Shown piece after piece: positions 8,204 to 48,570 of a stretch of DNA of 64,000 nt; positions within the stretch are counted from its first letter, which is position 1; the number at the start of each line of letters is the position of its first letter. Source of the stretch: Effrenium voratum. Lineage: Eukaryota > Sar > Dinophyceae > Suessiales > Symbiodiniaceae. The notes beneath the pieces are model-generated. The model saw only the letters and a program-made list of their open reading frames with translations. It had not been told where the DNA came from and made no database searches. The position numbers and the translations under genes are program-made. The stretch lies in the NCBI GenBank assembly GCA_963377175.1, contig CAUJNA010000189.1:236546-300545 (forward strand), written 5' to 3'.

Positions 8204-8995
<792 letters not shown>

Positions 8996-29200: not shown

Positions 29201-30046
29201 TCCTATTATGCCCTATTTGCTTGAAGCCTTTGCTTGGATGAATGGGTGAGTGGATGAGTGGAGGGCAGGTAACTAGGTCACAACGTTGATAGGTGGGTAG
29301 ATTAGCGCAAATTTAAACGATACGTAGACACACAGAAAGGTCGATCGACAGACACATGGACAGGTCGATAGATAAAGGCACGGGGCGGACATGCGAGTGG
29401 ATACAGAGTTAACTAAGTAGATTAGACACATAGACGGTTAGACCGAGAGGTAAGTAACTGCAAAGATGCATAGGTAAAGCTTGGAAATGGATAGAAAGAT
29501 CGACCACACTGCTACAATGATAAACAGCATCAACGCGACACCTCCACTTTCTTCCCTGGTTCTCCCCGTAAACCATGAACTGCAGAGACCATAGAACAAG
29601 AAATGAACAGCACCCACGCCATTCTGTAAATGAAGCATCTTTCAGGATGACGCCGTCAAGAGACTTTCACGTTTGCGCTCACGGTTTTTGCAGCCGCAGC
29701 ATCCACTCTAGTTGTAGCGTGGCACTCCAGGGGACCATGTGGGAATTTTGTTGCGATACAGCACAAAAGCCCCAAACGCTGCACTAACAAAACCTTAGTG
29801 CCACCTGCCGACTGTAACACCACCAAGGCGGATTCGGCCTACCCCTTGTAGCTTCACCTAACGACAAGCTTTCCGACCACGCACAAACGATAAAGGGCCG
29901 ACTCACAACATAGACCTGTCACCAGCGAATTCGTCACTAACAGCCTCAATCAAATGCTTGCCTATCCATGTTCAACAAACCTACTACCAAATCCCTGCCT
30001 TGGTACCAGGCTTGTTCTCAGTGTCTGAGCCAGCTGGGTCAAATGC
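23300..30046. other. Long region without a supportable gene
   Basis: Apart from short simple repeats (AGAGAC at about 28,796-28,830; A/C-rich 27,300-27,365; degenerate GATA/GTAGA-type words at 29,225-29,480) nothing could be assigned. Two minus-strand stretches look protein-like by composition: 25,284-24,773, with one frame change, and 27,052-26,408, 214 codons. Neither shows a domain, so they are not called. Confidence 0.5.
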
Positions 30047-30531
30047 GTTAAGGCATGTTGCACTGCTCCTATCTTGAACCCAAACCAGACCACCCAAAAG
30101 AACAAAGCAAGTCCGAAGCGGCCGCAGTTCTTTAACCGGGATTGCTGAAAGTAGCACTGCTTCCAGGGCACGGATGCGCCTGGAGCAGGAGGTGCGTTGA
30201 CCCCCCGTGAAACTTAAAAGGCAAGACAACGCGTGTCCTTGCAAGTGCGTGCAGTGCGCGCAAGGCGTGGCAGGCGTGCCCACGCCGGTCCGGAGACCTA
30301 ATGGTCCTGAGACCGTGGGCGGTCCGGAAACCGGGAGGTCCGGAGACCATGAACGGAATTGCAGAGCGTCTGCAACTTCTCTTTGCAGAGCCTTGTACAA
30401 GGCAGTGCAGGGTGGGTGGGTGGGTTTCAAAAGAAACAAATCAAGTTTGGGTCAAGGCTAGGAGCAAAACGGCCACCACAGAAGTAGATTCACAACATGC
30501 CCTAAACACAAGGGAAAAGAAAACCCTAAGC
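30047..30531 (-). mobile_element. 485-bp non-autonomous derivative of the A/B element family, unit 1
   Basis: Read on the minus strand, the unit begins GCTTAGGGTTTTCTTTTCCC, which is the 5' end of element B, and ends CAACATGCCTTAAC, which is its 3' end. About 155 bases at the 3' end match elements A and B closely, and about 115 bases at the 5' end match element B, including a degenerate spliced-leader segment near 30,457-30,477. The centre differs from A and B and carries four GGTCCGGAGACC-like boxes (about 30,287-30,350). It has no coding capacity, so it would need proteins supplied by a full element. It is joined without spacer to unit 2. Confidence 0.85.
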
Positions 30532-31016
30532 GTTAAGGCATGTTGCACTGCTCCTATCTTGAACCCAAACCAGACCACCCAAAAGAACAAAGCAAGTCCG
30601 AAGCGGCCGCAGCTCTTTTAACCGGGATTGCTGAAAGTAGCACTGCTTCCAGGGCACGGATGCGCCTGGAGCAGGAGGTGCGTTGACCCCCCGTGAAACT
30701 TAAAAGGCAAGACAACGCGTGTCCTTGCAAGTGCGTGCAGTGCGCGCAAGGCGTGGCAGGCGTGCCCACGCCGGTCCGGAGACCTAATGGTCCTGAGACC
30801 GTGGGCGGTCCGGAGACCGGGAGGTCCGGAGACCATGAACGGAAGTGCAGAGCGTCTGCAACTTCCCTTTGCAGAGCCTTGTGCAAGGCAGTGCAGGGTG
30901 GGTGGGTGGGTTTCAAATGAAACAATCAAGTTTGGGTCAAGGCTAGGAGCAAAACGGCCACCACACAAGTAGATTCACAACATGCCCTAAACACAAGGGA
31001 AAAGAAAACCCTAAGC
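30532..31016 (-). mobile_element. 485-bp non-autonomous derivative, unit 2 (tandem copy)
   Basis: Same length and structure as unit 1, with only a handful of substitutions and two or three compensating single-base indels. Its 5' end abuts the 3' end of element A at 31,016/31,017, so two short copies and one long copy share head-to-tail junctions. Each junction reads CCTTAAC then GCTTAGGG on the minus strand, with no spacer or duplicated target. Confidence 0.85.
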
Positions 31017-31334
31017 GTTAAGGCATGTTGCACTGCTCCTATCTTGAACCCAAACCAGACCACCCAAAAGAACAAAGCAAGTCCGAAGCGGCCGCAGTTC
31101 TTTTAACCGGGATTGCTGAAAGTAGCACTGCTTCCAGGGCACGGATGCGCCTGGAGCAGGAGGTGCGTTGACCCCCCCTTCAGTGTTTCAGGCAACCCCG
31201 GTACAAGCGAGCCAGCTGGGCCGTCGGCCTCATCACCCCCCCTTCAGAGTGGGGTTGCACCTGGCAGGGCAAGCGTCGCATGACACTGCACTCTCTTGGT
31301 CGTGAGCATCCTGTTGCTCTTTTTGGTCAAAGCG

Positions 31335-32129: not shown

Positions 32130-33080
32130 GCTGGTTTTGAGGCCCTTGTTCAAGGAGGCTCTGAAGGCTGACCACATTTGCGGTGGTATTGAGCGCATCG
32201 AGCCCGGCGGGCTGTCGAGATCAGAGTACAGCGGCGCTAACCAAGATCTGAGACGCAATGCAATGCTGGTGGCCCAAATGAGCAGGCCTATGCACTGCTC
32301 GAGTGTTTTAGGGGGCGCCCGTTTGCTTCCCAGCAGTGCTTTGATCAAGGCGTCCAGCTTCATCAGCTTAGCGGACACGAGCTGAATGGTGTCGTGGGAG
32401 AAGTTGATCTCCCAGCCACACCAAATGAGGCTGTCCTGGAACTGCGCCTTCTTCCACGAAATTGGCGCAGCAATCGCGCAGAAGAACAGCACCACTAAGG
32501 TGCGCACAGCAGGTCGTCCACGAAGAGGAAGGCTTTGTGGGGCTTCCAAGCCAACAGCCCATGCACTTGGCGGAGTGGAAATGCGCCCAGTGCGCTGCCA
32601 CCAGAATGCCGAGAAACGGCCTCCAAAGTGGCATACTCTATAATGGTAGAGTTTTTCCTGAAAGGCAAACAGTAGAAGGCCATGCTCTTCAGGGCGGACC
32701 TGCGCCTGTTTGTGAGCGGCTTTGAAGTCTCTGCTCGCCCCCGCAAACGCAAAGGCACCTGGAGTGTCTTCTGGTTGTGTGGACAGCGCCAGGTCTGAAG
32801 CCATTGGCAGGCTGAGGCGCTCTGGTAATTGGCATCTTGTGTTGACGCGGCACACTGTGCTATCCAGGACAAGGCGAGGCTCTTTGCCTTCTGCAAAGAC
32901 CACATTTAATTTGCCTACGGCGATGCCTAAAGGCCATTTTTCACGAGCCTCGGCAACGCTAAAGCCGGTTTCTACAATCAAGTTGTTGGCAATTTCATTG
33001 CGTAACAGGCTTTGCACTGTCTCTGGTTCGTCCTCGGCCATTTTCCAGTTGCCTTCACAGATCTCGAGATCTGGCGGCAC
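32130..33080 (-). pseudogene. Element A reverse transcriptase
   Basis: RNA-dependent DNA polymerase of the retroelement. From the N-terminal side: DLEICEGNWKMAEDEPETVQ, VVFAEGKEPRLVLDSTVC (template-grip region), DFKAAHKQAQVRPEEHGLLL (first catalytic aspartate region) and YHYRVCHFGGRFSAFWWQR. The catalytic pair lies in FLFVDDLL near 32,504-32,520, one frame away from the preceding block, so a frameshift separates fingers and palm. The thumb/connection region (WCGWEINFSHDTIQLVSAK) follows in the first frame. The style (VDD box, thumb beginning 'WCGWEI') matches DIRS-like RTs better than LTR or LINE RTs. Confidence 0.85.
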
Positions 33081-33249
33081 GGCAGTGTCCGGCTTTTTGG
33101 CCGGCCATTGCAGGCTGGGTGGCAAAGGCTGAGACAGCTCCCGTCGGTACCCCGTGTTGCAAAAAAGGCAGCAGGGCCATGTCTGGGTCACCACGAGTTG
33201 GCTAAGATTTGCAGCAAACGGAGTCTGTAAGGCTGTCCTGTCTCGGGGC

Positions 33250-34140
33250 TCATATCTGGAGGGCAGGGCAATTGCAGAGCTGTGTAAGCCATGTTCGCCA
33301 CTTCCAGGCTTTCGGATGGCGTGAGAGGGCAGTCCGGCAAGCCATTCTTGACGCGCGCCGCGCCATCCAACGCAGCCAGGCCTGGCCACTGCTTGCAGAG
33401 GGTGTTCTGCCTTTGGATGACACCAGTCTGCGGACGAGTGCATTCCTGCTCCGTCGCAAGGCGCCAATGAGATGGTCCTGAATATTTCGGAGTGCAGTGG
33501 TGCGGTCAGAGTGCTGAGGTATACCCCTTGCTCCTTTACGCCTGCAATGAGTGATTGCAACGGGCTTCAGGGCCTGGATTTTTGCGCTGTTGCAGCCGAA
33601 AGCCCATGACTTGGAGAAGGCTTTATTGCGCCTGCAGGCGTCGACCCGCAGCAAGGTGCATTGGTGGTCGCGCAGCATCTGGAAATTGCCAGAACATGGC
33701 GGAGGGCGGTTGTTCCCAGACGCCGACGCCTCCTTTGGAGACTGCTGCTCTGAACAAGGCTCTGCCGCGCTCGTGTATAGTGGTGCTATCCAGCAGTTTT
33801 TTGCGTTGCGACGGCGAAAGGCCGGGGACTCCGTTCATGTGTTGCGGCGTCCTCAAGGCTTTGGGTCCGCCTGGGCGTAGTTTGAGTCTGGAATATTCCT
33901 TGCAAGGCGGGGCAAGCATGATCAACACCACGATTCCTGACCAACATTGTCTGAGAAGAGCTTCAAAGACTTCGTTGTCCAGTATGACATGCGCGGTGGA
34001 TCAAAAGGCTCAAAACAGTCCAGGCCAAGGCTAATGGCTGCCGATGTCACCGGGTGTAGCCTACCCGAAAACACGTCCAAAAACAACTTTTTCAAGGCTG
34101 AATGTAACGGCGGTTCCGATGAGCTGGCGTTAGCAAGCAT
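33250..34140 (-). pseudogene. Element A cytosine-methyltransferase-like domain
   Basis: Motifs of a C5 DNA methyltransferase are visible in order. LFLDVFSG (near 34,065-34,090) corresponds to the S-adenosylmethionine-binding motif I, and DCFEPFD to the acidic motif II. LAPPCKEYSRL (near 33,890-33,910) is the Pro-Cys motif IV with the catalytic cysteine, and GVGVWEQPPSAMFW (near 33,690-33,730) stands where motif VI (ENV in classical enzymes) should be, here EQP. The C-terminal stretch ACRRNKAFSKSWAFGCN is shared with element B. One frameshift lies between motifs II and IV. Known retrotransposon methyltransferases in dinoflagellates act on CG sites; activity of this degraded copy is unlikely. 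Confidence 0.75.
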
Positions 34141-34324
34141 GTGCGGCCCTGGCGTTGCGCCAGGCCCATCGTGGTAAGCGCAGGGCAATGCCGGAGTTGG
34201 GGTAGCCTTTACCGGCATGGGCAACTGTGAAGGCTGCGTATGGGGGCCCGGTGTGGGGCCCGGCCGGCTGCGGTGCGGCTGCCTGATCCTGCGCCGGCCC
34301 AAGATCAGGGCTGTTTCACGTGTG

Positions 34325-34440
34325 CTTGTTGCGGTCCATGGCCGGGTGCTTTTGCTGGCAGCCCATGATGGCGCACACATGGGCGAAACGGCACTGGTTG
34401 TTAGTGCAAAGGCCTGTCTGATAGCGTTGGCAGACTTCGC
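34325..34440 (-). pseudogene. Element A CCCH zinc finger
   Basis: The minus strand reads CQRYQTGLCTNNQCRFAH, with spacing C-x7-C-x4-C-x3-H, close to the usual RNA-binding CCCH finger. It is followed by a second Cys/His stretch (CAIMGCQQKHPAMDRNKH). The position between the gag-like region and the methyltransferase suits a nucleic-acid-binding nucleocapsid function. Confidence 0.75.
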
Positions 34441-34599
34441 ACCCTTTGTATGTAGCGCACCACTCTGCTTTGGGCTTAGACGGTGGCAGGGCTCCTTTGG
34501 ACTTCCCCTTGCCTTTCTTGGCTGGACGTGAAGGCTTGCGGGGTGGCTTAGGGTTGCGTCTGCCGCGGTGTTGCCGGGCGTGGCGGCGCTGGCACGGTT

Positions 34600-35880
34600 G
34601 GCTTGGAAATTTTAGGGCGCAACTCTAGAAGGCTGTGCACATCGTACGCGTTAGCTCGTACAAGGCATCATCCAGCGACCATTGCTGTCCAAGGAGGTCT
34701 GATATGGCTGCCCAGAGCTTGCGATCCGCCGACAAGAGCTCTTGTGTGTTCACTGCGCGAAGGCCAAGGCTGGCATCTGGCTGTGTGAGACACAGGTCGG
34801 CTATCTTTTTGTCGAATGCCTTGAGATTCGACAAACGCGCTGCTTGGCACAGGGCCAGGGCATTGCGAAAGACGGTTTGGATGCGGGTGAGCCACTCCAC
34901 TGACACTTCGGGGGTGTCGTCAAAGAAGGCTTGGCTCAGGAGCTGTAGTTCTGACCGTACAGCTTGGGATGACTTTGCCTCCATGCGTTCCTGGTACGCG
35001 GAACTGCCAGGGCACCCATTTCAGGGATTGTCCGGGCTTCAGGCCCTCGTGCACTAAGCGGATGGATGGCGTGGTGTCAGCAGCTCACCCAGGATTGGAG
35101 TTAAAAGAAGGCTGGACACACGTTTGGATGTGAGCTTGGGTGGCAAGTGCTCTGCCCACGATGCTAGCTGGTTAGGCTGAACACATGGCGACCTGGAGTT
35201 GGCAGCAGGCTCGGGAGGCGCCGCTGAGCTCATGCTTAGCCGATGGGCTAGGGCTTTCCGAAGGCGCGCTGCTGCCACACTGGATTCTGGATCTTCAATG
35301 CTGTTGGCTGTCCAGAAGTCCCTGGCAGAGACTATGAAAGGCTGCAGATCTGCGGCGAAGGCAAAGTCCGACGGACAGTCAAAACCTTTTGCCTTCTGGG
35401 ACCCTGGCGTCTATAAGGACATCCTGGAGCCCATCGCGATCCATGTGCTTCAACAAGGCATGTTTTGAAGGCTGGTTTGATGGAAGGAAACAGCTGCGGA
35501 GCAGGTAAAGTCAATGCGAATGGCGGGCACCTGATTGGCGCATGAGCACTGCTGAGTTGCTGACGCGCCGTCCGAGGAATACCTGCGGTGTGAGCTGCAC
35601 AGAGTTTGAGTACTCCGTGGGTGCCGAGGCATGGCAAGCAACCGCTCATTTTAGCACAGCAAGGCCACGCATGCTTTGCGTTTGCAGAGCTGCATGTCCG
35701 GGTGAGTTTGGCGCACGGGGTATGAGCACTCTTTGAAGTGCAACCCGCATGCTGTTTGCACTGAGCTGTTGTGAGTGCTAAGCACGGCATGTACGGAACC
35801 CCAGGGCACAAGGCGAACGCCGATCGAGTCGACTGCGAGAGTCGGAGCCAGCGGGCGATGCGAGGGCTCTGGCGAACCTT
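34600..35880 (-). pseudogene. Element A ORF1, gag-like
   Basis: The 3' part (34,984-34,625) encodes an open stretch of 119 residues containing QELLSADRKLWAAISDLL. The gag-like region of element C has the related KQVETADKKFWSLMAELT, so I take both as the same structural-protein domain. The upstream part (35,420-35,280) reads FAADLQPFIVSARDFWT in another frame, and 35,880-35,450 is open in two frames without a recognisable motif. Frameshifts break the ORF at least twice. Confidence 0.5.
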
Positions 35881-35882
35881 CT

Positions 35883-36231
35883 TTATAAACAGGCACAATC
35901 CCAACATCCTTGCATATCACCTATTGCATCATAGCCATAGGCCAAGAAGGTATCTGTGATCCCAAACTGCCATGAAAACTCTCGTGCAGACCATGCGACC
36001 CGTAAGGTTCCTTAGGGGTCGTTAAAAAAAAAACTTAACAGGTTTCAAACAGTTGCATCTGAACCCCAAAAGGTGGGGGGTGAGCACGTCATACGAAAAC
36101 GGAAGCTTGTTCTTTTCTCGCTCGGCAGACGAGGGGTTATCTCTTGCACAGTTCCATGTATCTTGGAGGCATATCCAAGACAAAGAGAAAGCATTTCTTC
36201 GAGATGCATATCTCATACATATCATTTCCCC
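35883..36231 (-). repeat. Repeat B2 of element C (349 bp)
   Basis: Direct copy of the 350-bp segment at 36,681-37,030, with about 11 differences, including the boundary of an A-run and one single-base indel. It begins (plus strand) TTATAAACAGGCAC and ends ATCATTTCCCC. It forms the outer 3' repeat in the split-direct-repeat arrangement. Element A sequence starts immediately to its left. Confidence 0.9.
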
Positions 36232-36288
36232 ATGTCTCATGTGAGGGCACACGTATCATGCCGGGCGGGTTCTGCAAGAAATGGGAGG

Positions 36289-36680
36289 GAAGAAAACATC
36301 TAGTATGCACCTACCAAAGGCGCACCCACCCAACCCTACCCTGCATCTTGAGACGGCGGGGCGAAACATATAATTTTCAAATCATCCTGATCACTTCATG
36401 GTTTGCAGCATTTGTACTTCAAGAAACAAATGCACCCCACATTCCAGAAGGCCGAGGGGCCCACGTTCAAAATTTAAACGCACGAGTCACGCATAGTGTC
36501 AAAATTAAAAATTTCGCACCACGCACTCTTGTCAGAGTTGAGGCATATTAGCAAATCAAAGTTTCAGCACGAACTCCTCGACATGTTATGCACACACACG
36601 GCAGCTGTCCCGGGACGCCTTGGTTCCAAGGCTGTAGTGCCTAGTTTATAAACAGCTATTTGACAAGTCTAACTGCAACC
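36289..36680 (-). repeat. Repeat A2 of element C (392 bp)
   Basis: Direct copy of 47,252-47,643 with the same length and only about five substitutions (roughly 98.7% identity). It is separated from B2 by 57 bases and touches B1 with no gap at 36,680/36,681. It contains no TG...CA ends, so it is not a conventional LTR. Confidence 0.93.
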
Positions 36681-37030
36681 TTATAAACAGGCACTATCCC
36701 TACATCCTTGCATATCACCTATTGCATCATGGCCATAGGCCGAGAAGGTATCTGTGATCCCAAACTGCCATGAAAACTCTCGCGCAGACCATGCGACCCG
36801 TAAGGTTCCTTAGGGGTCGTTCAAAAAAAACCTTAACAGGTTTCAAACAGTTGCATCTGAACCCCAAAAGGTGGGGGGCGAGCACGTCATACGAAAACGG
36901 AAGCTTGTTCTTTTCTCGCTCGGCAGACAAGGGGTTATCTCTTTGCACAGTTCCATGTATCTTGGAGGCATATCCAAGACAAAGAGAAAGCATTTCTTCG
37001 AGATGCGTATCTCATACATATCATTTCCCC
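36681..37030 (-). repeat. Repeat B1 of element C (350 bp)
   Basis: Lies between the end of the RNase H frame (37,039) and repeat A2. It matches B2 at 35,883-36,231 almost throughout. In PAT/Ngaro-type elements the inner repeat B1 occupies exactly this place. Confidence 0.9.
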
Positions 37031-37038
37031 TGTCCGCT

Positions 37039-37818
37039 TCAGCATTGCGCAATCGCTTCAAGCTTTAGTTTCGTCACCGGGCACACAGGCTGCGCAACCT
37101 GAAAGGGGCGAAGGAATTCCAGAGGGCCAAGGGAACCGCGACTGGGGTGGTCTGAGACATTCGATGACGACGGCACGCGGGCAATCCACAGCAAGAAAAG
37201 GTCCTCCTCCGGGTCTTCAAGCAATAGCAACAGGTCTCGCCAATCCGCTTCCTTTGACGAGCACATCCAGGCCAGGCCAGTTGTTGACAAAAAGGATCAA
37301 GCGCTTTGTATCCACCATGTGTTTCCAGTGAAGCGTTGCCACCACGCAAGCATATAGCTCGACCAGTCCAATGACATGCGACTTCCCTTTGGCCTGCCAC
37401 TTTTCAATCATGGCTGACGGGCCAAGCTGACTTTCCCAGAGGGGGCCAAGAGAACGGCCCCTATGGTTGCTCTAGCCGATCCTCCTTCATACTCCAAGGC
37501 TCCGTCCGTGAAAAGCAGGAATGGTTTTTGCACATCATCAGCATCAAACATTTTGGGTCGGCCCGAGCCTAGCCTGCCCTTCAAAATATTCAAAGCCGAT
37601 ACCATGGTTGGATCCAGCATTTTCTGTCACGCGACGCATGTCCCATCTCACGCAAGTCTGCCAATGCACATCGGCCAGCGCGTCCCCACACATGAGAATC
37701 GGCGTATTGTAGCTTTCCCAGAATCGAGGGCAACTTTGCCGGAACAATGAAACCATCGTCAAGTATGCCGTCTATGGCGCGCTTGAGCTCATTCACTCGC
37801 GAAGGTTTATTCCTGATC
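37039..37818 (-). pseudogene. Element C RT thumb and RNase H (3' half of interrupted gene)
   Basis: Continues the RT interrupted at 42,446. It starts with IRNKPSRVNELKRAIDGILD, then LPSILGKLQYADSHVWGRAG (thumb/connection). RNase H follows in other frames: LLFTDGALEYEGGSA contains the first catalytic aspartate, GLVELYACVVATLHW the glutamate, and WIARVPSSSNVSDHPSRG the C-terminal aspartate. The third catalytic acid, expected in a 'FVDN' box, reads LFVNNW, an Asp-to-Asn change that should abolish activity if real. The frame changes near 37,600 and 37,410 and again near 37,250. Confidence 0.8.
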
Positions 37819-38334
37819 GTTAAGGCATGTTGCACTGCTCCTAGCTTGAACCCAAACATGAACCCCCAAAAGAACAAAGCAAGTCCGAAGCGGCCGCAGT
37901 TCTTTTTACCGGGATTGCTGAAAGTAGCACTGCTTCCAGGGCACTGGTGCGCCTGGAACAGGAGGCGCTTTGACCCCCCCTTCAGTGTTTCAGGCAACCC
38001 CGGTATAAGCGAGCCCGCTGGGCCGCAGGCCTCATCACCCGCCCTTCAGAGTGGGGTTGTACCTGGCAGGGCAAATGTTTGCGTGGCCATGCACGCTGGG
38101 CTGTGAGCAGCCTGCTACTCAGGGTCTGCACTTTTTCCGGTCAGAGCGGCTTGATATAAGCGGCTGGCTGACGCCGCCAGTTGTTCTGGCTGACAGGGCA
38201 ACGACGGCCATTTGGTCGCAATGCACGTCGGGATGCAAATAAGGCTGGCTAAGCAGTGACAGAGGCTGCTGCCAAGTGCTCCGGGCGCCAGGGCGCATGC
38301 ATCGGACACAGCTGAATACCTCGGCCTGACATCG

Positions 38335-38865
38335 CTAGGCCTGCAGGGCTGAAGCGTATGCGACTTTCAGGGCGATGGCTGAATCGGGCCAGCCTCTGCT
38401 GAGATCGTCTGCCCAATCATTGCACCTTCCTGGAACGTGCGTTGGCTGCAGCAGCACATTGTGAGCGTGAGCCCAGAAGGCTGTTAGTTGCACGAAGAGT
38501 TGCAACGGCCAGGAGGTCGTGAACAACTTGTTAAGGCTTGCCTCCGTTGCGGAATTGTCCGTGCCTGAAGGCATGCTAAACGAGTAGCGCCCACCACCAA
38601 TGTGGCTGTGGGTTGCTTGCAGTAGTGCTAACTGCGCCAGCGTCTCGAAGCATGCGATGTACCGCTGTCCAGGCTTGACAAGGCAAGGCCACACGGCTCG
38701 TATGTCCTGCATGTTCCAGGTTTCGGCAAACCAAACCACTTGGGAGGATGTGACTGCCCAGCCCCCGATCCCTACCAAGTCGTCTTCGGCACTTGCAGCT
38801 GGTGTGGCCGCGCCAAGGGCTGAACAGGCGAGTGCTGAAAGCACAACGCCAGCCAAGTAAGGCAT
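38335..38865 (-). CDS. Element B RNase H domain (intact frame)
   Basis: A 176-codon open frame covering a whole RNase H domain: EDDLVGIGGWAVTSSQVVWF (first acid), ETLAQLALLQATHSH (glutamate helix), SGTDNSATEASLNKLF (third acid) and HVPGRCNDWADDLSRG (final His/Asp). It degrades the RNA strand of the RNA-DNA hybrid during reverse transcription. All catalytic positions are preserved, unlike in elements A and C. The frame is a domain within a longer polyprotein rather than a separate gene; the first ATG is probably not a true start. Confidence 0.8.
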   Translation of the reverse strand: MPYLAGVVLSALACSALGAATPAASAEDDLVGIGGWAVTSSQVVWFAETWNMQDIRAVWPCLVKPGQRYIACFETLAQLALLQATHSHIGGGRYSFSMPSGTDNSATEASLNKLFTTSWPLQLFVQLTAFWAHAHNVLLQPTHVPGRCNDWADDLSRGWPDSAIALKVAYASALQA

Positions 38866-39059
38866 TGTTGGCTTGACTTGGAAAGGCTAGTGTATGGGTT
38901 ATTGGGGTCCGCGATGCGCACCCATGTGGGCTTGCTAGTGCCAGGCACTTGCGGGATGTCCTGAGGGCAGTGCATAATTTCCAAGATTTTGGAGCCTACT
39001 GTGATCCACAAGCCCGGAAGGCTATGGCTAGTTTTGAGATCCTTGTTCACGGATGCTCT

Positions 39060-40193
39060 AAAGGCTGACCACATTTGAGGCGGTATCGAGTGCATCGAGC
39101 CTGGTGGGCTGTTGAGGTCCGAGTACAGCGGCGCTAGCCAGGATCTCAGATGTAGGGCAATGCTGCTCGAGTGTTTTACGGGGTACCCGTCGGTTCCCCA
39201 GCAGTGCTTTGATCAAGGCGTCCAGCTTGGTCAGCTTAGCGGACACGAGCTGAATGGTGTCGTGGGAGAAGTTGATCTCCCAACCGCACCAAACAAGGCT
39301 GTCCTGGAATTGCGCCTTTTTCCATGAAATGGGCGCTGCAATGGCGCAAAAGAAAAGCACCACCAAGGCAAACATGTCTGGCGCGCTATCCCGGAAGAGT
39401 GCACACAGAAGGTCGTCCACAAAAAGGAAGGCTTTGTGGGGCTTCCAGGCCAGCAATCCATGCACCTGGCGAAGCAAGAATGCGCCAGTGCGTTGCCACA
39501 GAATGCCGAGAAACGGCCCCCGAAATGGCACACTCTGTAATGATAGAGCTTTCCTTGAAATGCGAAGAGCAGAAGGCCATGCTCTTCAGGGCGGACCTGC
39601 ACCTGTTTGTGTGCGGCTTTAAAGTCAATGCTGGCGCCCACGAAGGCGCCTGGAGTGTCCTCTGGCTGCGTGGACAGCGCCAGGTCCGATGCCATGGGCA
39701 AGCTCAGACGCTCCGGTAGATGGCATCTGGTATTCACTTGGCACACGGTGCTGTCCAAGACAAGGCGCGGCTCTTTCCCTTCTGCAAAAACGACATTTAA
39801 CTTGCCTACGGCGATGCCTAAGGGCCATTTTTCTCGAGCTTCGGCGATGCTAAGGCCGGTTTCTACAATCCAGTTGTTGGCAATTTCATTGCGCAGCAAG
39901 CTTTGCACGGTTTCTGGCTCGTCCTCGGCCATCTTCCAGTTACCCTCACAAATTTCCAGATTCGGCGGCAGCGCGGAGTCTGGCTTCTTTGCCGGCCATT
40001 GAAGGCTGGGCGGCAAGGCTGACACGGCTCCTGTCGGTACCCCGTGTTGCAGAAATGGCAAGAGGGCCATGTCTGGATCACCCCAAGAGTTGGCCAGGGC
40101 CTGCAGCAGGTGGAGTCTGTATGGCTGTCCTGCTTCGGGGCTCATGTCTGAAGGGCAGGGCAATTTTAGAGCTGTGTACGCTAGATTTGCCAC
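39060..40193 (-). pseudogene. Element B reverse transcriptase
   Basis: Fingers and palm read from 40,193: LEICEGNWKMAEDEPETVQS, VVFAEGKEPRLVLDSTVC, DFKAAHKQVQVRPEEHGLLL, then YHYRVCHFGGRFSAF. A single frameshift near 39,490-39,520 moves the catalytic box (KAFLFVDDLLCA) to the next frame, which continues through WCGWEINFSHDTIQLVSAK to 39,058. Protein similarity to element A is high throughout, so the two are close relatives. Apart from the frameshift the polymerase is well preserved. Confidence 0.87.
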
Positions 40194-40199
40194 TTCCAG

Positions 40200-41407
40200 C
40201 TAGGGCGAGAGGGGGCAGTCCGGAGAACCGCTTTTGATGTGTGCCAGGATTCGTGGCACCAATTTGCGCTCATGCATCCAATGCAGCCAGGGCCTGGCGA
40301 CTGCTTGCAGCGGGTGTTCTGGCTTGGGACAACACCAGTCTGCGGAAGAGTGCATTCCTGCTCCGTCGCAGGTTGGGAGCCTGCAAGGCGCCAGTGTGAT
40401 GGTTCTGGAGAATTCGGAGTGCAATGGCAGCGCTTGTCGGAAGGAGCCTGTTTTACTGACCCTTCCTATGCCTACCTGGGCAAGTTGCAGGGCCAGGGAA
40501 GGAGGGTATTCAGCGGTCAGAGTGCTGAGGTATACCCCTTGTTCTTTCACGCCTGCAATGCTTTGCTTGTATGAGTGATTGCAACGGGGGTGCAGGGCCC
40601 GTATTTTCGAACTGTTGCAGCCGAACGCCCACGACTTGGAGAAGGCTTTATTGTGCATGCAGGCGTCTACCCACACCAGGGCACATTGATGATCGCGTAG
40701 CATTTGGAAGTTGGCCTCTTCCAGCCAGGACATGGCTGATGGTGGCAACGCCGACGCCTCCTTTGGAGACCACTGCTCTGAACAGGGCTCTGCCCCGGTC
40801 GTGGATGGTCTTGCTATCGAGCAGTTTTTTACGCTGCGAAGGCGAAAGGCCGGGGACCCCGCCCATGTACTGCGGGGTCAGAGTAGTATACATTGAATGT
40901 ATGCGTGGCGTCAATGCGGCCGGGTGGCGGAGCCAGCGAGACCAAGAGACTCCGGATTCTCCACGAGATTCAGGTAGAACTTGTCAAAGCTGTGGAGGTG
41001 CGGATCTGGCAGAATGGCGAGTGACTGTGGCTAACAAGTGGGGGAGTCCTTTTGATGGCACACTGAGGTCCGGGCAGCGATCGTAGTCATCAGAGCAAGT
41101 CCATGAGCTCTCTGGGTTCGGTGGACTGGCGGGCTCTGAGTCTGGAGTATTCTTTGCAAGGCGGGGCAAGCATTATCAGGGCCACGATTCCTGACCAGCA
41201 GAGTCTGAGAAGTGCCTCGAAGACCACGTTATCCAGGATGTGCGCTGTGTCTCCATCTAGGTCAAAGGGCTCAAAGCAGGTGCAGCCTACCTGCAAAAAC
41301 GTCCAAAAAGAGTTTCTTTGAGGCTGGATGCAACGGCGACTCCGATGAGCTTGCCTGGGCGGGCGTGTGTGGCCTTGGCGAGGCGCCTGGTTGGCTACGG
41401 TGCGCAT
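40200..41407 (-). pseudogene. Element B cytosine-methyltransferase-like domain
   Basis: Same domain as in element A, in several frames. Motif I reads LFLDVFAGR near 41,275-41,320, motif II CFEPFDLD, motif IV LIMLAPPCKEYSRL near 41,140-41,185. The C-terminal recognition part (ACMHNKAFSKSWAFGCN, then SIAGVKEQGVYLSTLTAEYP) is intact in one 182-codon frame (40,748-40,200). Between motif IV and the C-terminal part, the segment around 40,880-41,090 does not match element A. It contains unrelated sequence where A has GGPKALRTPQHM, so a small insertion or rearrangement is likely. The motif VI region (WEQP in A) is also frame-shifted. Confidence 0.72.
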
Positions 41408-41554
41408 AGGGCAAGGCTGGAGTCAGGGCAGCTTCCACTGGCACATGCAATGGTGAAAACGGCGCATGAGGCCCGCTGTGGGGCGAGGCCGGCAGCAGCA
41501 TGGCTGCCCGATCCTGCGCCGGTCCAAGTCACGTGTGTTTGTTGCGATCCATGG

Positions 41555-41640
41555 CGGGGTGCTTTTGCTGGCAGCCTACTATGGCGCACACGTGGGCGAA
41601 ATGGCACTGGTCATTAGTGCAAATACCCGTCCACGCCCTT
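41555..41640 (-). pseudogene. Element B CCCH-type zinc finger
   Basis: The minus strand reads TGICTNDQCHFAHVCAIVGC followed by QQKHPAMDRNKHT, then a stop. It corresponds to the finger of element A. The first zinc ligand cysteine seen in A (CQRYQTG) is lost to a frame change upstream of TGIC. Confidence 0.65.
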
Positions 41641-42059
41641 TATAGGTAGTGCACCACTCTGCCTTAGGCTTTGGCGATGGCGAGGCTCCTTTGGATTTCC
41701 CCTTGCCTTTCTTGGTGGGGCGTGAAGCGCGGGCTGGCTTAAGGTCGCGCTTGGGCCCCCTTTGCCTTGGTGTTGCAGCTCCTAAATACCTGGACACTAG
41801 TGTCATGGCAGCAACCCCGGAGGGGTGCGGTGCTGGAGCGGACTCAAGGATCAATGACTAAGGCCGTAGCGAAGGGACAGGCGTACAGTGCAACACATGC
41901 TTGAAAAGGCTCACGAACGCCGCAGGCGAGGTTGCCAGTCAAGAAGGTGCAAAGTGGGCTCAAGATCCAAGTGCAATGTCGCGGCATTTTTTTACATTAG
42001 CAGGTTGCGTATAAGGCAAGGCTGTCACGGGGGCAGGGCGTCTGCCGGTTGCATGTGCT

Positions 42060-42329
42060 TCACCACAGGCTGAGACAATTGTCACACGGTTGATACGCGA
42101 AGGCTGAGGCATCGCGCTGTGCCAAGTGGTGGCAGCGCCGATGATGAAAAACCTTGCGTTTCGGCAGAATGTGAACAGGCCCGGGGAGGAGCGGCGGCTC
42201 AGAACCTAACGATTCCAGCAGTGCCTTGCGGTGCTGGCGCAACAGACACCCAATGGCAAAGCAAGTAAGGCCGGACACCAGAGCTGTGTAAATGGCGAGA
42301 CACATTCCAAAGCACAGCAAGGCGTCCAT
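42060..42329 (-). CDS. Small ORF at the 5' end of element B, one membrane segment plus Cys/His motif
   Basis: 89 codons from ATG, starting 45 bases downstream of the spliced leader (GCCGCCATGG context at the start). Residues about 4-30 are hydrophobic (CFGMCLAIYTALVSGLTCFA), followed by basic LLRQHRK, consistent with a single membrane anchor. Residues about 62-86 read VFHHRRCHHLAQRDASAFAY then QPCDNC, a Cys/His arrangement that could bind metal. I do not recognise the family. It occupies the place where element A has its gag-like ORF. Being the first ATG after the leader, it is the likeliest to be translated if the element is expressed. Confidence 0.5.
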   Translation of the reverse strand: MDALLCFGMCLAIYTALVSGLTCFAIGCLLRQHRKALLESLGSEPPLLPGPVHILPKRKVFHHRRCHHLAQRDASAFAYQPCDNCLSLW

Positions 42330-42373
42330 GGCGGCGTTTGCGTTTCAAATGAAACCGCAGGTTTGGGTCAAGG

Positions 42374-42393
42374 CTTGAGCCAAAATGGCTACG
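42374..42393 (-). other. Dinoflagellate spliced leader inside element B
   Basis: The minus strand reads CGTAGCCATTTTGGCTCAAG, 20 bases identical to the conserved leader; the next upstream base is G where the consensus is C. It lies about 50 bases inside the 5' end of element B. The 485-bp units have a degenerate version at the same position, so it is a fixed part of the family's 5' region. Confidence 0.92.
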
Positions 42394-42445
42394 CGTAGTT
42401 CGATTCACAACATGCCCTAAACACAAGGGAAAAGAAACCCTAAGC

Positions 42446-43420
42446 ATGCGTCCACCGGCGCTGCATGTCAGGTCGAAAACCACCCCGAGCACTTCAGCAG
42501 AGTCTCCAAAGGGCTCCAACTTGTCTTCAGCAAATGCAAATCCAAACAGCGAAAAGAGGCCCTTTGCGCTAGCCATCGTTGAAGCAATGTGCAGCTGGTG
42601 GGAAACAACTGGGAAGTCGTCAAAGTAGCTAGCCCATAGAATTCCGAGCTCGCACCCTGCGGCCTGCATGACCCGCAAGAAATTGTGAACGCTGCCTGCA
42701 GCCCTGAAGGGGAGCTGCAGGGTCCCATAGCGACACCACCGCCTTGTCATAGTCGAGTGGACTCAAAGGAAGCTGCTTGTACTTTAAGTCCAGCGCAGTG
42801 ACCTTGAAATCTTGTGTCACAGAAAGCCAATCTTCATGGACGAAACCAGCCAGCTTTTTTGTGGTGGAGAGCGCAAATTCGAATTCACCTCCAGCGCGGT
42901 ACAATCTCTTGGCAACCGCCCAAACCAAATGATCCATAGCATACATGGACGAGTAAGCACTGATTGGCCTCAACTTGTTCTTTCGCATGATCCCAAAACG
43001 CCTTACAGGCAACCACCTTTTCCCCAACAGGGCAGAGACCGCGGCAGGCGTCATCGGTCCCTCGAGCCATCCCTTTTGAAAGGCCTCGTCCATAGGCAAG
43101 ACAAGAAGATCCGATCCAAATGCGCCGTCTCGTTCATTGCGGATCTTTCCCAACAATGCAGGTCTCATGAAGGAGGAGTCGCTCATCAGCTGAGCTTCAC
43201 TCAAGGAGGCAACCTTTAGGCCCTGCTTGAAAATGTTGGACTTGGTAGCATTTCCAACGATCCGAAAACCTTGAGCCAATTCATCGAAGAGCACTGTATC
43301 CGGCCACTGCATGGATTCTGCTATCCTCCTCATGAGAACCAATCTCTTCGGCCCCAAGACTGTTTTGACGCCTGGGTGAGTGCTGGACTTGAGGCTCTTC
43401 ACCATGTAAGCTTTTGGCAA
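42446..43420 (-). pseudogene. Element C reverse transcriptase, 5' part (interrupted by element B)
   Basis: From the N-terminal side: GNATKSNIFKQGLKVASLSE, then MTPAAVSALLGKRWLPVRRF, KNKLRPISAYSSMYAMDHLV (fingers) and FKVTALDLKYKQLPLSPLDY (first catalytic aspartate region). A frame change near 42,730 leads to AAGSVHNFLRVMQAAGCELG and the catalytic YFDDFPVVSHQL at about 42,610-42,625, then EVLGVVFDLTCSAGGRM, where element B cuts in. The box is FDD rather than the VDD of A and B, and the peptides differ clearly, so C belongs to a different subfamily. Confidence 0.85.
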
Positions 43421-44666
43421 GCTCAATCCATTTCTTAACAAGGTTGATCCGATGTCCAACAAGTGGGGACAAAGTAAGTTGGAGACATAAGCACTTGAGG
43501 ATCGAGTCGGGCATGTGGACAGCCAGGTCAAAGGGGCGCCAAAGTCGCCTCGCTGCATTCACAAATTCCTCCTCCGTGTGGTAGATGCCATAAATGCAAA
43601 AATAGAGCCCTCCCCGCTTCTCGGAACGTAACAGTTTACTGCCCTTTGGTACATGCCTGAATGGCTCAAGCAAACACCGTTTCTGATCCAGCGGATGTCG
43701 ATATTCATCGACAAGCTGTGGTGTGGCCCTGCCTCGTGGCTGGCGAGCAGCTCGTGGAGGTTGAAAGTGTCCAGGTTCCACAACAATAGCATTTGATCTG
43801 CAAATGTCATCGAAAATTTGCACCAATGCTTCACACATAGCATCGGGATATTGAGCCTCATGCGATGTGGCAAACCCAGTGGCTTTGTCGAATCCCCAGG
43901 GTGCATGAACATGCGGCGGAGCATCGTCGCAATTTTTTTCATGGAAAGTATGCCGACATGGTTGCTGAGAGAACTGGTTTTCTTTGGTCTCTCGCCTCCA
44001 AAAGCGCAAGCATGGCAATGTGCAAAAGTACCCTGCTGCACAGCATATTGAAAGTAAGGCAATTCCCACAGAAAACTGTGTGGGATTCTCGATGATCCAC
44101 GGTAGGTTGTGGTTCTGCAAGAACTTTATGAACTCTCCCAGCCGTTCATAAACCAGGTTTCCCGCTTGCACTTTCTCATAGTCAGTTCCAGTCAACGAGC
44201 TGAGACCTAGAGGTTGTTCTGATGACCTCAAAGGCTGAGGACCTGGAGTGCCATCTGGCATTGGTATACCACGTGCTTTGCTGCAAGTCCCACACGGCGG
44301 GGCTGCATGAACACAAACAACGTCACACGTTGCGATGACGTACCTCAAAACATCCCATGCGTGATTTTTGGACAAACCAAGCTGAGCTGTATGGCATTTA
44401 GGAGTGTGGCGATTTCGCTTGTAGTCAATTGGCATAACACGATATCCTTGCCGTTTGGCGAAAGAGCTGAGGACGGCACTCCCAGCACATATCTCAATGA
44501 AAAGCATCTGTTTCAAAGTGGGTGAAATCATGGTGGGCTCCATCTTGGAGAAGCATTCATCCCCGTCTGGGGTAGAGCCATTGGGTCCCGTTGCATTCGG
44601 GGCCGGAAGACTGCATGAAGGCTGCATCAATTTGGCCTTCTTGGAAGGCTGGCTTCCCGTCTCCAA
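43281..44666 (-). pseudogene. Element C methyltransferase-like protein region
   Basis: An open frame of 461 codons. Residues about 55-75 hold LFIEICAGSAVLSSFAKRQG (motif I of S-adenosylmethionine-dependent methyltransferases); DVVCVHAAPPCGTCSKARG holds the Pro-Cys motif IV; PWIIENPTQFS holds motif VI as ENP. After motif VI two frameshifts nearly compensate. The segment about 44,070-43,930 reads sensibly in a second frame (MPYFQYAVQQGTFAHCHACA), then the first frame resumes with PPHVHAPWGFDKATGFATSH and MCEALVQIFDDICRS. The part beyond about 43,700 leads toward the RT. Motif order suits a C5 cytosine methyltransferase, but with an unusual motif VI. Confidence 0.72.
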
Positions 44667-44726
44667 CTGTGCATTGGCAGGACATGAGCATGCATTGTCA
44701 TCGTCAATCTCATCGCCATCGCCTAG

Positions 44727-45440
44727 TCACTCCTGACCAGGCAACTTCTTGTTGCTGCAATCAACTGCATGTTTGCCGAAACATCCACGCACTGCGCAAC
44801 AATTGCGCAACGCTAGGCTCCGACCTAGACTTCTTGGGCCATCATTGCGCCTGTCTGGCTTCGGCTGCAAAGGGGTCTGGGGAGGAGCAAACCTGGGTTG
44901 CAGCAAATTCAAAAACTCAGGGCTGTTGAAGCATTCACTGAAGCGCAAGTCGCACGGCTTGCCAGCAGCCTTGGTCTTGATCCCCTCGCGCGTGAGCTCT
45001 GCCATCAAGGACCAAAATTTCTTGTCGGCAGTCTCAACCTGTTTCATCGTGAGGCGAACATAACCATGCGGGGGTTCATCAAGTCGGGCTCCTAGGAGCT
45101 TCTCAGTCAGCCGGTCATGTTTGATATTTGCTTGGTCCAACTTGCATCTGGTCGAGCACGGCTCCGCAGTCTCCTTCTTTGACAGCTTGAGGTTTCCTGA
45201 AGAATCGAAAGAGACTCCCCGAATCCTTCTTGGATCCTGTAAGCAACTCATGCTCACGCGACACGCATGTCTCCCAGGCAAGATAAACTATGCGGTCTGA
45301 TTCATAAGCTGCCACGCATCTATCCACAAGCGTGTCTCCAGGCTCATAATTTCCCCTCAGCTCCAAGCCAGTGAGCCGCTGCTGCTGATCCTTTAGGCGT
45401 TGCCAAACGTTTGGCGGACATCTTGTCTGAAGCTTCCACC
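44727..45440 (-). pseudogene. Element C gag-like region with Cys/His knuckle
   Basis: 45,366-45,115 reads YEPGDTLVDRCVAAYESDRI then VYLAWETCVSREHELLTG. A frame change leads to 45,281-44,727, which includes YVRLTMKQVETADKKFWSLM, then CDLRFSECFNSPEFLNLLQP. It ends with CCAVRGCFGKHAVDC, a short Cys/His cluster suited to RNA binding. The 'ADKKFW' stretch is shared in form with the ORF1 of element A. A structural/nucleocapsid role is inferred from position and composition. Confidence 0.6.
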
Positions 45441-45499
45441 CGCGACTTTATTAAGCCCCACCCATCTTTTGTGCCTCATGACTGAGATCAGCCTCACTA

Positions 45500-45790
45500 A
45501 CTCATCTCAGGTACAATTTGAACTCATGCTTGCTGAAGCAAGCACTGCAAGCAGGATGCATGAACTTTGGCTTTTCAGCCAACATCTCATACCGGGTAGA
45601 CATAGTCCTTCCACAAGACAAATTTGCGCCTGACTCATCAGCCATGGAAGCCTTGTGTCTGCCAAGCACCAACGACCTGCTCTGTTGCTTGCTCGTCTTC
45701 ACAAGGGTCAAGGTCGTCCTCATCTTCTGAGCCTGGCGCCGAAGAGGCATCGCTGTAAACACCATCATCCGCTGCGCCAATCCTTGCAAC
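45500..45790 (-). pseudogene. Cys-rich domain between recombinase and gag in element C
   Basis: The minus strand reads LGRHKASMADESGANLSCGR, then STRYEMLAEKPKFMHPACSA and CFSKHEF. Conserved cysteines (SCGR, PACSACF) suggest a metal-binding or DNA-binding module attached to the C-terminus of the recombinase. Family not recognised. Confidence 0.5.
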
Positions 45791-45839
45791 TTCAGCTGCA
45801 ATGAGTCCAGACCTAGTCAGTCCAGGGTCGCTACCGCCT

Positions 45840-47005
45840 TAAGCAGTACGATCAGCAACCGACATGGCGTCCCGGGAGTATACCAGCATGCTCTTATCCG
45901 AGGATGACGAAGGAGATTTCTAGGGTCATGAGGCAAACCATATCGAGCTGCCCAAGCCAACAATGTAGCCTTGCAGCTGCAATCGTCTCGGTACCTGCTA
46001 GCAACGCCCTCATCCATTCACCTGCAGACGTAACGTTCAAGGGCGTCTGAGACCATCCTCCTCCATGGGCTGGGGCGGGCATAACAGGCAATGCACTGCG
46101 TCGTTCTGAAGACATCAGGCCTTGCTCTTCCCTCAACTTGTTCCACACCGGCAGCCAAGGAGGGTCAACAGGCATTGAACTGGTATTGCAATGGGCAAGA
46201 ATCTCACCTTGCGTTCCAAGGTGACACTGGTCTTGCCCAGCTGAACATTCGAGGAAACCAACCAACGAACCGTTCACCCGCATTGTATCCAACTTCATGC
46301 CAGAAATGCGCTGCCCATCCGAAAACCTGAGCCGTCCATAGACAAGCCGAAAATCGACGTCCTTTCATCGTGGACCACTCTCTCAAGCCTTTGGACTTGC
46401 TCTTTGGTAAGCGGTGGCCTTTGTCTCAGCTTGGCCCCCTTGCCATAATGAATCCTGATGGCTCCGCAAATCCGAGCTGAATGTCCCCCTGCAGAACCGC
46501 CAATAAGTCCCAGGATGTGCGTTGCGAAGTTGATGGACAACATGAGGGATTTTGGAAAGGTGGGCGCCGAACTCTGCATAGCCTTTACGAAGTCGTAGAC
46601 TCTGGACTCTTCAAGTGGAAAACAAATCACATGCCTGTCAGCCCAGAATTTGATGAATCTCAACAGCGGTCCTGCACGATTTTGCAATGTAGCTGATGCC
46701 TTATCGCCCAACGCATCACGGATAGATTCAGCAACACCGCCTCTGGCAAATTCCATAGGGCCTGACAATGCCTGCATCCTCGAAACTTCTGGATTAACAG
46801 CTACAATCGAAAGCCACTTGCGATACGCACACTTCCTTTCATAAGACATCTGTTCGGCGTGAGCATTCTTCATTGCCTTCTGCGCAAAACTGTCAGCTGT
46901 CATCGTAGGGCCCAAGCTTTCGTCCAAATATTCGGCATCCACTCGCATAGGTGGCGGAATAGGAGGCATAGGCCCTCGAGTGCACAGTACAGAGTCACGA
47001 TGCAT
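45840..47005 (-). pseudogene. Element C tyrosine recombinase
   Basis: Integrase of the retrotransposon, which would join a circular DNA copy to the genome. The N-terminal arm-binding part is open from 47,005 (YERKCAYRKWLSIVAVNPEV, later QNRAGPLLRFIKFWADRHVI). A frame change near 46,335 gives YGRLRFSDGQRISGMKL, the box-I catalytic arginine in its 'LRFSD' setting (46,300-46,340). Near 45,940-45,975 CSCKATLLAWAARYG matches the box-II region; the usual His reads Cys and the Arg position is Lys. SMLVYSRDAMS carries the nucleophilic tyrosine at 45,878-45,880 in yet another frame. Three frames are needed, so the copy is inactive as read. Confidence 0.85.
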
Positions 47006-47251
47006 TTTGAGATATCCAGTTTGATCTTAAGGCGTAGTTTGTTTGCTCTTGTTTATGGCCAAAAAAGGATGTCGAGCATGCATGCGAAAGTGAAGAGTGT
47101 CCACTGTAACATCTGACGAACGCTTTGAAAGTCTGCTGCCAAGACTGCCATCTGTGTCCCCTTGCATCGCCCCGTTTCGCTTTAGTCACTGCAGGCAAAC
47201 ACACATCTGCCACACTCAGTTCTGTTGTAAAGGCAAACGCCGGGACAGGGA

Positions 47252-47643
47252 GAAGAAAACATCTAGTATGCACCTACCAAAGGCGCACCCACCCAACCCT
47301 ACCCTGCATCTTGAGACGGCGGGGCGAAACATATAATTTTCAAATCATCCTGATCACTTCATGGTTTGCAGCATTTGTACTTCAAGAAACAAATGCACCC
47401 CACATTCCAGAAGGCCGAGGGGCCCACGTTCAAAATTTAAATGCACGAGTCACGCATAGTGTCAAAATTAAAAATTTCGCACCACGCACTCTTGTCAGAG
47501 TTGAGGCGTATTAGCAAATCAAAGTTTCAGCACGAACTCCTCGACATGTTATGTACACACACGGCAGCTGTCCCGGGACGCCTTGGTTCCAAGGCTGTAG
47601 TGCCGAGTTTATAAACAGCTATTAGACAAGTCTAACTGCAACC
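47252..47643 (-). repeat. Repeat A1 of element C (392 bp)
   Basis: The 5' terminal repeat of element C on the minus strand, equal in length to A2 (36,289-36,680) with about five substitutions. The outer boundary is GGTTGCAGTTAGACTTGTC on the minus strand. A promoter driving the element would be expected here or just downstream, but no motif can be named. Confidence 0.92.
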
Positions 47644-48570
47644 ATGGTGTCATCCCTGCTGTACAGCAGTGCAGATGAAAGGCGATGGTGACCCTGAAGT
47701 CTTCGGCTGTCTTCGGGAAGGCGTAGCTGTGCTGGTCATTCCTACTGGGGTCCTGTGTGAAGGTTGCAAAAGTGCTCCGCCCTACTTGTCTTACACCACA
47801 GCAAGCCTCACGCCAACCGCACGCTGCAAAGCACAAATCTTGCACCATGCTGTCACCTATTACAAGCGCCCCTCAGTACTGGCATTGATGCAGCAGCTCA
47901 TGCCGCTCATGCTGCCAGGCCATCATCACTGGGGCAACGGCACAACTGCAAGGAATCCAAGGAACTGGGGCTGGAACAATCACGCAATTCAAGGTACAAT
48001 CGGTATGTCACTCAGCAACCTGCGCCCAGGCGCAACATCTGGGAGCCCATGTGGCTTGGCATTTTATTTCCTAGCGTTAGCAAGTTGTCAGGGCAAAGGA
48101 TGGAGCATAAAACGAAGGAAGAAAGCGACCACACAACCATCAACCATTCAGAAGAGTTTTACAATAATCTTGAATAGGGAATAGGGTCTGAAGCTTGCTT
48201 AAGTTTACGTGTCTGCCTTCATGTGAAATTCATGTCTACAACTATTTGAATCCTCCTGATCCGATGAGTGACCATGACAACTTGACAACTTTCCGGTTGA
48301 GCAGCAGACAGCCCGGGCCGCTTTTCTTCTTTTCCGTGCCTCGCAGCCGCAGCCTCATTGACAACTCATTGATGACAATGAAAGCTTTCTGAAAGACATG
48401 CGTGTGTGCTTCCAACTTCCAACCTTGGTTGGCAGCCAGCCAGCCCAACCAGCGCCAACCAGTTCACACACACAAATTGTCACACAAACAACGACTGCCT
48501 GCTGCTGCCACTGCCAGGGCTGCCAACGCAGACGCAGACGCAAACCAAAACTCAGACCAGCTTTGGCTCA
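47644..48570. other. No supportable gene outside element C
   Basis: An open frame on the plus strand (47,669-48,184) has ordinary composition and no domain. If element C inserted into element A, the 5' remainder of A should resume at 47,644; I could not recognise it. Confidence 0.45.

Follow-up and report, generated by a model that had tools for sequence, protein, structure and literature searches.

A probable split-direct-repeat retrotransposon with a tyrosine-recombinase-like frame in Effrenium voratum, and spliced-leader scars in an associated repeat family

Which kind of mobile element carries two direct repeats, A and B, in the interlocked order A1-body-B1-A2-B2, and how would it regain its ends after passing through RNA? 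The question was raised by a 64,000-nucleotide stretch of the dinoflagellate Effrenium voratum (assembly GCA_963377175.1, contig CAUJNA010000189.1, C189:236546-300545 in our numbering; "the window" in what follows), in which such an order surrounds a coding body and an inserted retrotransposon. With good confidence, we consider the structure (hereafter the A/B element) to be the decayed remains of a dinoflagellate tyrosine-recombinase (YR) retrotransposon with split direct repeats, measuring 7.1 kb without its nested insertion and coding, in this order, for YR, Gag and methyltransferase (MT)-reverse transcriptase (RT)-RNase H (RH), whose ends would be regained via the internal B1-A2 block; scars in a second family, C, would come from a trans-spliced template. 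Coordinates are collected in Table 1.

Repeat order, ends and genomic copies

The realignment of repeat A was gap-free, and that of repeat B covered 350 columns with 11 differences including one gap (350 and 349 bp); the difference rates of A and B (5/392 vs. 10 substitutions/349) were not significantly unequal (Fisher p 0.19). Repeats of such length and 97-99% identity cannot be due to chance. On the minus strand, A1 was followed by the body, B1, A2, 57 nt and B2, with B1 and A2 touching directly and no bases between them; the sizes, the difference counts, the order and the contact given in an earlier note on this DNA were all exact.

The whole assembly (1,155,904,702 bases, 3,699 contigs; G000, in which contigs are designated by C-numbers, the names C1 and C2 being kept for two elements of family C) was searched with B1 plus A2, very common words being skipped, and 21 rows were obtained (11 candidates, all scored). 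The contigs C3495 and C622 contained complete elements (A1, body, B1-A2, spacer, B2) and, with the window, brought to three the genomic copies with the complete order, a recurrence that the earlier note had proposed to look for; A or B alone, in the manner of an ordinary long terminal repeat (LTR), was seen in none of the 21 rows. C3522 had B1-A2-spacer-B2, A1 not being found within the 13.7 kb fetched, and C2700 had two tandem A-x-B units (x, spacer), one of them holding an inverted piece of B, with no coding domains detected over 5.5 kb. The 57 bases between A2 and B2, previously taken for the sole deviation from the known plan, were kept as a spacer of 56-62 nt in these copies and therefore belong to the element.

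Independent insertions started with GGTTGCAG and ended with TTTATAA, and the internal B1-A2 border read TTTATAA followed immediately by GGTTGCAG, i.e. both outer ends joined exactly. An inverted repeat of 16-17 bp lay across this junction in four of four A/B copies (arms TAGTGCCTGTTTATAA and TTATAAACTAGGC(A/G)CTA), its score being reached by 0, 0, 0 and 2 of 1000 shuffles, and the family C junction showed a similar arm layout (2/1000 shuffles). From this layout we infer a resemblance to a recombinase site. Insertion without target-site duplication, as in YR retrotransposons, was observed at the window and at C3495, with the reservation that C622 had a 3-bp gag on both sides, perhaps by chance.

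The two repeats of one copy were closer to each other than to those of any other copy in three of four copies for B and in two of three for A. B1-B2 identity was 96.9% in the window, 99.7% in C3495, 98.6% in C3522 and 94.6% in C622 (best B match in another copy: 94.1, 96.0, 91.5 and 96.0%, respectively), and A1-A2 identity was 98.7% in the window, 100% in C3495 and 99.5% in C622 (best A match in another copy: 98.7, 98.7 and 98.5%, respectively). Such likeness within a copy is what the repeat-annealing model requires (PMC6681497).

Three contigs (C3671, C3554 and C1105; loci L017-L019) belonged to a separate third family, which had no more than the final ~148 bp of B in common with the A/B element (84-85% identity) and its own direct repeats of ~385 bp, 99.7-100% identical and with starts 722-730 bp apart; its B tail looks as if terminal sequences had been exchanged between families. 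In C622 (loci L012/L013), an RT-bearing element in the opposite orientation, with 302-bp direct repeats ~600 bp apart, split the A/B copy within its Gag-MT part, another nested insertion. The predicted protein P0244 matched window positions 47669-47755 and 62465-62549, plus positions 35796-35876 on the opposite side of the A/B element, and this suggests that both flanks may form one locus in a relative.

Coding body and comparison with known elements

Without the nested element C2, the A/B element measured 11,761 - 4,627 = 7,134 bp. The domain order from A1 was YR-like, Gag-like, MT-like, RT and RNase H-like; the frames were broken in the window, and the stop-to-stop frames of C3495 had 613 amino acids (aa) for YR, 409 for Gag and 1075 for MT-RT-RH. 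The named relatives of the window proteins were from Symbiodinium microadriaticum, S. natans and Symbiodinium sp. KB8, and gene numbering in another genome put a YR gene (s792_g18) beside a Gag-MT gene (s792_g17). The YR-like protein had 99 relatives at E<=0.001; in 19 aligned relatives (alignment A3: R, K, HxxK, GYH, YSRD), the R, K, H and Y positions were invariant and HxxK nearly so. The Gag-like region was named after its position and its Cys/His motif, and the MT-like domain after its motifs (Table 1). Six family-C proteins weakly matched this MT-like region (21-28% identity, E 0.006 to 1.4e-6).

An RT with RNase H, as expected of a YR retrotransposon, was also present: the relative P0018 matched PF00078 (E 1.6e-6, 28.5 bits, narrowly missing the curated cut-off of 29.6) and could be aligned by tblastn through the RT and the RNase H-like region, the latter, for which no Pfam model matched P0018 at E<=0.1, being named from its motifs. 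In the search of the whole genome for YR, P0064 was the single relative taken as query, and the best 72 of 976 candidates were scored. YR and MT relatives were not confirmed in viral contigs, nor YR relatives in genome contigs; PDB searches with the YR and MT alignments gave one chance-level row each, and the Rfam scan gave 0 matches.

With three complete copies and a spacer of 57-62 nt, the A/B element follows the split-direct-repeat pattern A1-body-B1-A2-B2 and appears to work like PAT, Ngaro and VIPER elements, though membership in these groups is not claimed, since the domain order fails each of them. The usual PAT order puts YR last, downstream of RT-RH(-MT), unlike the A/B element, where YR came straight after A1 and ahead of Gag (window, C3495 and C622). 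Ngaro elements have YR last and no methyltransferase, whereas here YR was first and an MT-like domain was present. VIPER elements have the Gag-like frame first (Gag-YR-RT/RH) and no methyltransferase, vs. YR-Gag-MT-RT-RH in the A/B element. C5 methyltransferases have ENV where the MT-like domain has ENP. PF00145, the Dnmt3 domain, was absent from the Pfam families matched at E<=1 by the 26 members of alignment A1, and a Dnmt3 domain in the A/B element was rejected.

In host and repeat plan, the nearest known elements are SymbioDIRS (PMC5890265). SymbioDIRS-Dnmt3 of Symbiodinium has a dinoflagellate host, A-coding-B-A-B repeats and YR on an open reading frame (ORF) separate from Pol, and two structures with differing domain and ORF orders have been reported (PMC5890265); it differs in carrying in Pol a Dnmt3 C5-methyltransferase found by PF00145, vs. 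0/26 for the A/B element, whose YR has no Pfam match. According to PMC5890265, DIRS elements carry a Dam-like MT. The VIPER/TATE elements of kinetoplastids share the A1 ... B1-A2-B2 plan, three ORFs (Gag-like, YR and RT/RH) and a trans-splicing host (PMC6681497), and PAT elements share the split direct repeats, a putative methyltransferase and, in the Gag of Pat1, a zinc finger (PMC4157794). The Ngaro elements of Cafeteria burkhardae have the order A1-[ORFs]-B1A2B2, solo AB repeats and insertions into other mobile elements, but their ORFs are Gag, RT-RH and YR, and a methyltransferase is not mentioned (PMC8547959). The earlier note had regarded the four-repeat order as defining the PAT/Ngaro type: the split-repeat retrotransposon with a YR-like gene stood, but the order also occurs in VIPER and SymbioDIRS (PMC6681497, PMC5890265) and so cannot by itself identify the PAT/Ngaro type.

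Spliced-leader scars in family C

The nested element C2 lay inside the RT frame of the A/B element and had a single A end and a single B end. Three other A/B copies had the empty site, GGACGCACCTTGATCAGG, 3 bases longer than the joined flanks of the window, and no target duplication was seen at C2. A second copy of the family, C1 (~30045-35882), lay directly next to the A/B element on its B2 side, and the aligned pieces of C1 and C2 were 72-92% identical at the DNA level. In genome searches with the C tail (best 40 of 862 candidates scored) and the family-C A end (best 40 of 553), 26 of 46 rows with the C tail spanned B1 and one A-x-B unit and two more an equivalent stretch; both units of C1 were present only in the window's own row. 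A copy in C200 had the layout A1 (108 nt, 99% to A2)-body-B1-A2-x-B2, and 255 exact B-A junctions of family C were counted over the assembly; C is therefore an abundant split-repeat family. Its spacer x contained a short array of palindromic units of the GGTCTCCGGACC type (window 30287-30348 and 30773-30834), possibly a structured RNA element, and a 276-bp RNase H stretch was inverted in C1 with respect to C2 (window 31432-31706 and 38377-38651, 88% identity).

The 21-nt dinoflagellate spliced leader (SL; DinoSL) was used as reference; its last 15 bases are given in PMC12014239. Family-C A contained a splice-acceptor-like site, TTTTGCTCCTAG followed by CCTTGACCCAAAC (the border alternatively written TTTTGCTCCTAG followed by CCTTGACC), which was exact at 358 places. 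At 27 places the same border read TTTTGGCTCAAG followed by CCTTGACCCAAAC, i.e. the end of the leader joined at the acceptor, vs. 0 in the reversed-pattern control. These scar, own-acceptor and junction counts were exact matches over the whole assembly, the first 100 places being listed for the own-acceptor and junction patterns. The leader matched over 12 nt (the floor imposed by the search pattern) in 9 scars, 13 nt in 1, 16 nt in 9, 17 nt in 1, 20 nt in 4 and the full 21 nt in 3. At loci L054 and L069, overshoot joins were seen, A continuing beyond the usual border before the leader started.

The DNA thus had the leader joined at the acceptor, yet upstream of it stood the stretch of A expected to be lost through trans-splicing, and the second A was untouched where seen. 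The upstream part was still present in 26 of the 27 scarred places, the exception (L061) having unrelated upstream sequence. No B end was found within 260 nt upstream of a scar (0/27), and the scarred A copies are therefore not A2; own-acceptor sites, on the other hand, were directly behind an exact B-A junction in 53 of the first 100 listed (Fisher p 6e-8 vs. 0/27). Seven stretches were fetched for A2 partners and six held A2 (C159, C171, C440, C544, C502 and C2464), all six being unscarred, with their own acceptor and with subfamily bases matching the scarred A1; the 601-nt stretch of C1703 held no site and was left out of the six. Scarred C544 and C1703 shared a flank and are probably one duplicated insertion. 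The A1-A2 distance was 5.4 kb in the C171 pair and 28.8 kb in the C502 pair.

Scars at the A1 acceptor and none at A2 argue for trans-spliced RNA as the template, with the upstream part of A restored from A2. In the route that we propose, the RNA would be reverse-transcribed and the internal B1-A2 block would provide the ends absent from the RNA; a circle bearing the B-A junction would then arise, and YR would integrate it by recombination at that junction. In family C, the leader joint would have been made in a trans-spliced RNA serving as template, the first-strand cDNA would transfer to A2 via ~30 nt of A downstream of the acceptor, leader bases might occasionally be retained at a microhomology (GCC.TTTTG), and A2 would complete the lost 5' end before circle formation and integration. 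In a model put forward for PAT- and Ngaro-like elements, repeats anneal in the course of reverse transcription (PMC6681497). For the A/B element, the body edge behind A1 was ragged in three of three copies (window, C3495, C622), A ending at the same GTTTTCTT, and a trans-splice repair route is here only suggested.

Judging from these sequence patterns, we lean towards the view that in trans-splicing hosts split direct repeats may be a device tolerating the loss of the RNA 5' end, in which A2 restores the upstream part of A1 and sometimes leaves a piece of the leader. If so, the family-C scars would be a direct physical record of the strand transfer postulated by element models, and an outside marker of which RNA end was missing and which repeat copy repaired it. 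The transfer step could then be tested on dinoflagellate assemblies already available and through the sequencing of extrachromosomal circles, and a possible reason would be at hand for such elements living in trans-splicing hosts (dinoflagellates, kinetoplastids, nematodes). Through the A/B element, a family resembling recombinases and a domain resembling methyltransferases are added as well, neither of them recognised by Pfam.

In dinoflagellate retrogenes with relict leaders, the leader is likewise fixed in DNA at a splice border after reverse transcription (PMC12014239, PMC3229502), but there it marks the 5' terminus of a processed copy of a gene, whereas in family C the terminal repeat recurs upstream of the SL. 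None of the titles listed in the literature searches described a spliced leader inside a YR retrotransposon, most subscription journals being outside these searches. An exact 21-nt leader followed by GAGAGTAGTGGGG was also present at 13203-13223 of the window (minus strand), where shuffled sequence yielded no leader; it is possibly the relict leader of a retrogene.

Alternative explanations and other features of the window

A by itself is a long pair of direct repeats flanking a coding body, and an ordinary LTR retrotransposon could be proposed, A being the LTR pair of an element at 36289-47643 and B an unrelated tandem duplication around the 3' LTR. This was rejected as highly improbable: A had neither a TG start, a CA end nor a flanking target duplication, the outer ends of independent insertions were the 5' end of A1 and the 3' end of B2 rather than the 5' end of A1 and the 3' end of A2, a YR-like frame was present in the body, and B1-A2-spacer-B2 recurred with identical borders in other copies, C3495 and C622 contradicting the proposal. 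Assembly artefact or a chance tandem arrangement was also rejected, its probability being negligible; the window has one 100-N gap (8104-8203), far from the element, and against such an origin stand two other contigs with the same order, the same borders and a similar spacer, together with the 255 junctions of family C.

With respect to the scars, an origin by drift of the sequence or by conversion from SL genes, in place of trans-splicing, has some support in the resemblance of the own acceptor region GGCCGTTTTGCTCCTAG to the SL AGCCATTTTGGCTCAAG (an equally good alignment was reached by 64 of 2000 shuffles of the segment from C1), in the 12- and 16-base scars (18 of 27), which are only a few bases away from the own sequence, and in locus L027, where SL-like bases upstream go together with an own acceptor end. 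We judge it improbable, given the scars with 20 or all 21 SL bases, the overshoot joins, which drift does not produce, and the absence of scars behind a B end, drift and conversion being expected equally in A2 and A1. Strand transfer between the trans-spliced RNA and an unspliced sister RNA of the family, in place of the element's own A2, is in our view a rather unlikely source of the scars; in its favour, co-packaged sister RNAs would have the same subfamily bases, and either route would yield an acceptor-fused SL with A restored. The simplest donor is A2 of the same RNA, whose subfamily bases agreed with the restored parts in the six pairs, as those of a sister RNA would too.

Several observations weigh against a split-repeat YR retrotransposon repaired through its own A2. 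The YR and MT assignments are putative and rest on motifs, position and gene order: none of 19 YR relatives matched PF00589 and none of 26 MT members matched Pfam methylases at E<=1, and comparing profiles with those of E. coli XerD and Dcm brought no convincing match. Of the tyrosine recombinase announced by the earlier note, a recombinase-like frame was found in the body, frameshifted in the window. In family C no YR gene was found in the window, where 98 of the 99 YR relatives matched the A/B region only, or in copy C200, which gave one weak match (E 0.007). The scar search covered family C only. The simple model leaves L027 (G000:C1954:10948-11190) unexplained, and the C502 pair, given its distance, may not be one element. 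B1 and B2 of C622 were less alike than its B2 and the B1 of C3495 (94.6% vs. 96.0%), A1 and A2 of the window were no closer to each other than to A of C3495 (98.7% vs. 98.5-98.7%), and the junction of the third family had no arms, 631-638 of 1000 shuffles reaching the score.

Table 1. Features of the A/B element and of family C in the window.
Feature	Position	Strand	Evidence
Repeat A1, 5' end of A/B element	47252..47643	-	392 columns, 5 differences to A2; outer end GGTTGCAG same in two other genomic insertions
YR-like frame, frameshifted in window	45577..47104	-	tblastn with relative P0026; open as 613 aa in C3495 and C622
Gag-like region with C-terminal Cys/His-rich knuckle, broken	44730..45417	-	tblastn with relative P0019, residues 106-171, 54.5%; separate 409-aa frame in C3495
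MT-like domain (CAGSA, PPCGTCS, ENPT), frameshifted	43700..44640	-	25 relatives, alignment A1
RT, part preceding C insertion	42427..43396	-	tblastn with P0018
Element C2, 4,627-bp retrotransposon insertion	37818..42444	-	joined flanks align through RT/RH frame; empty site in C3495, C622, C3522
Spliced leader fused to splice acceptor in A end of C2	42374..42394	-	20/21 DinoSL bases; mean 0.00 in 100 shuffles; among the 27 scarred places of the genome
RT connection and RNase H-like region past C insertion	37072..37817	-	tblastn with P0018 residues 547-803
Repeat B1	36681..37030	-	alignment to B2
Left arm, att-like inverted repeat, stops exactly at B1-A2 border	36681..36696	-	0/1000 dinucleotide shuffles reach score
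Repeat A2, adjoining B1	36289..36680	-	alignment to A1
Right arm, att-like inverted repeat, 29 nt into A2	36635..36651	-	same shuffle test
Spacer, 57 nt, A2 to B2, with acceptor-like TTTCTTGCAG	36232..36288	-	57, 62, 56, 57 nt in C3495, C622, C3522, C2700; aligned part 85-93% identical
Repeat B2, 3' end	35883..36231	-	outer end TTTATAA same in three other genomic places
3' end of C1: B1, then two tandem A-x-B units, ~485 bp each	30045..31177	-	in genome search with C tail, both units covered by window's own row only

Outside these elements, the window contained a 3-kb minisatellite with a 14-nt unit, GTGCTTCGGTCGGT (303-3425), and GTGTTT hexamers at 8212-9002, beside the 100-N gap.

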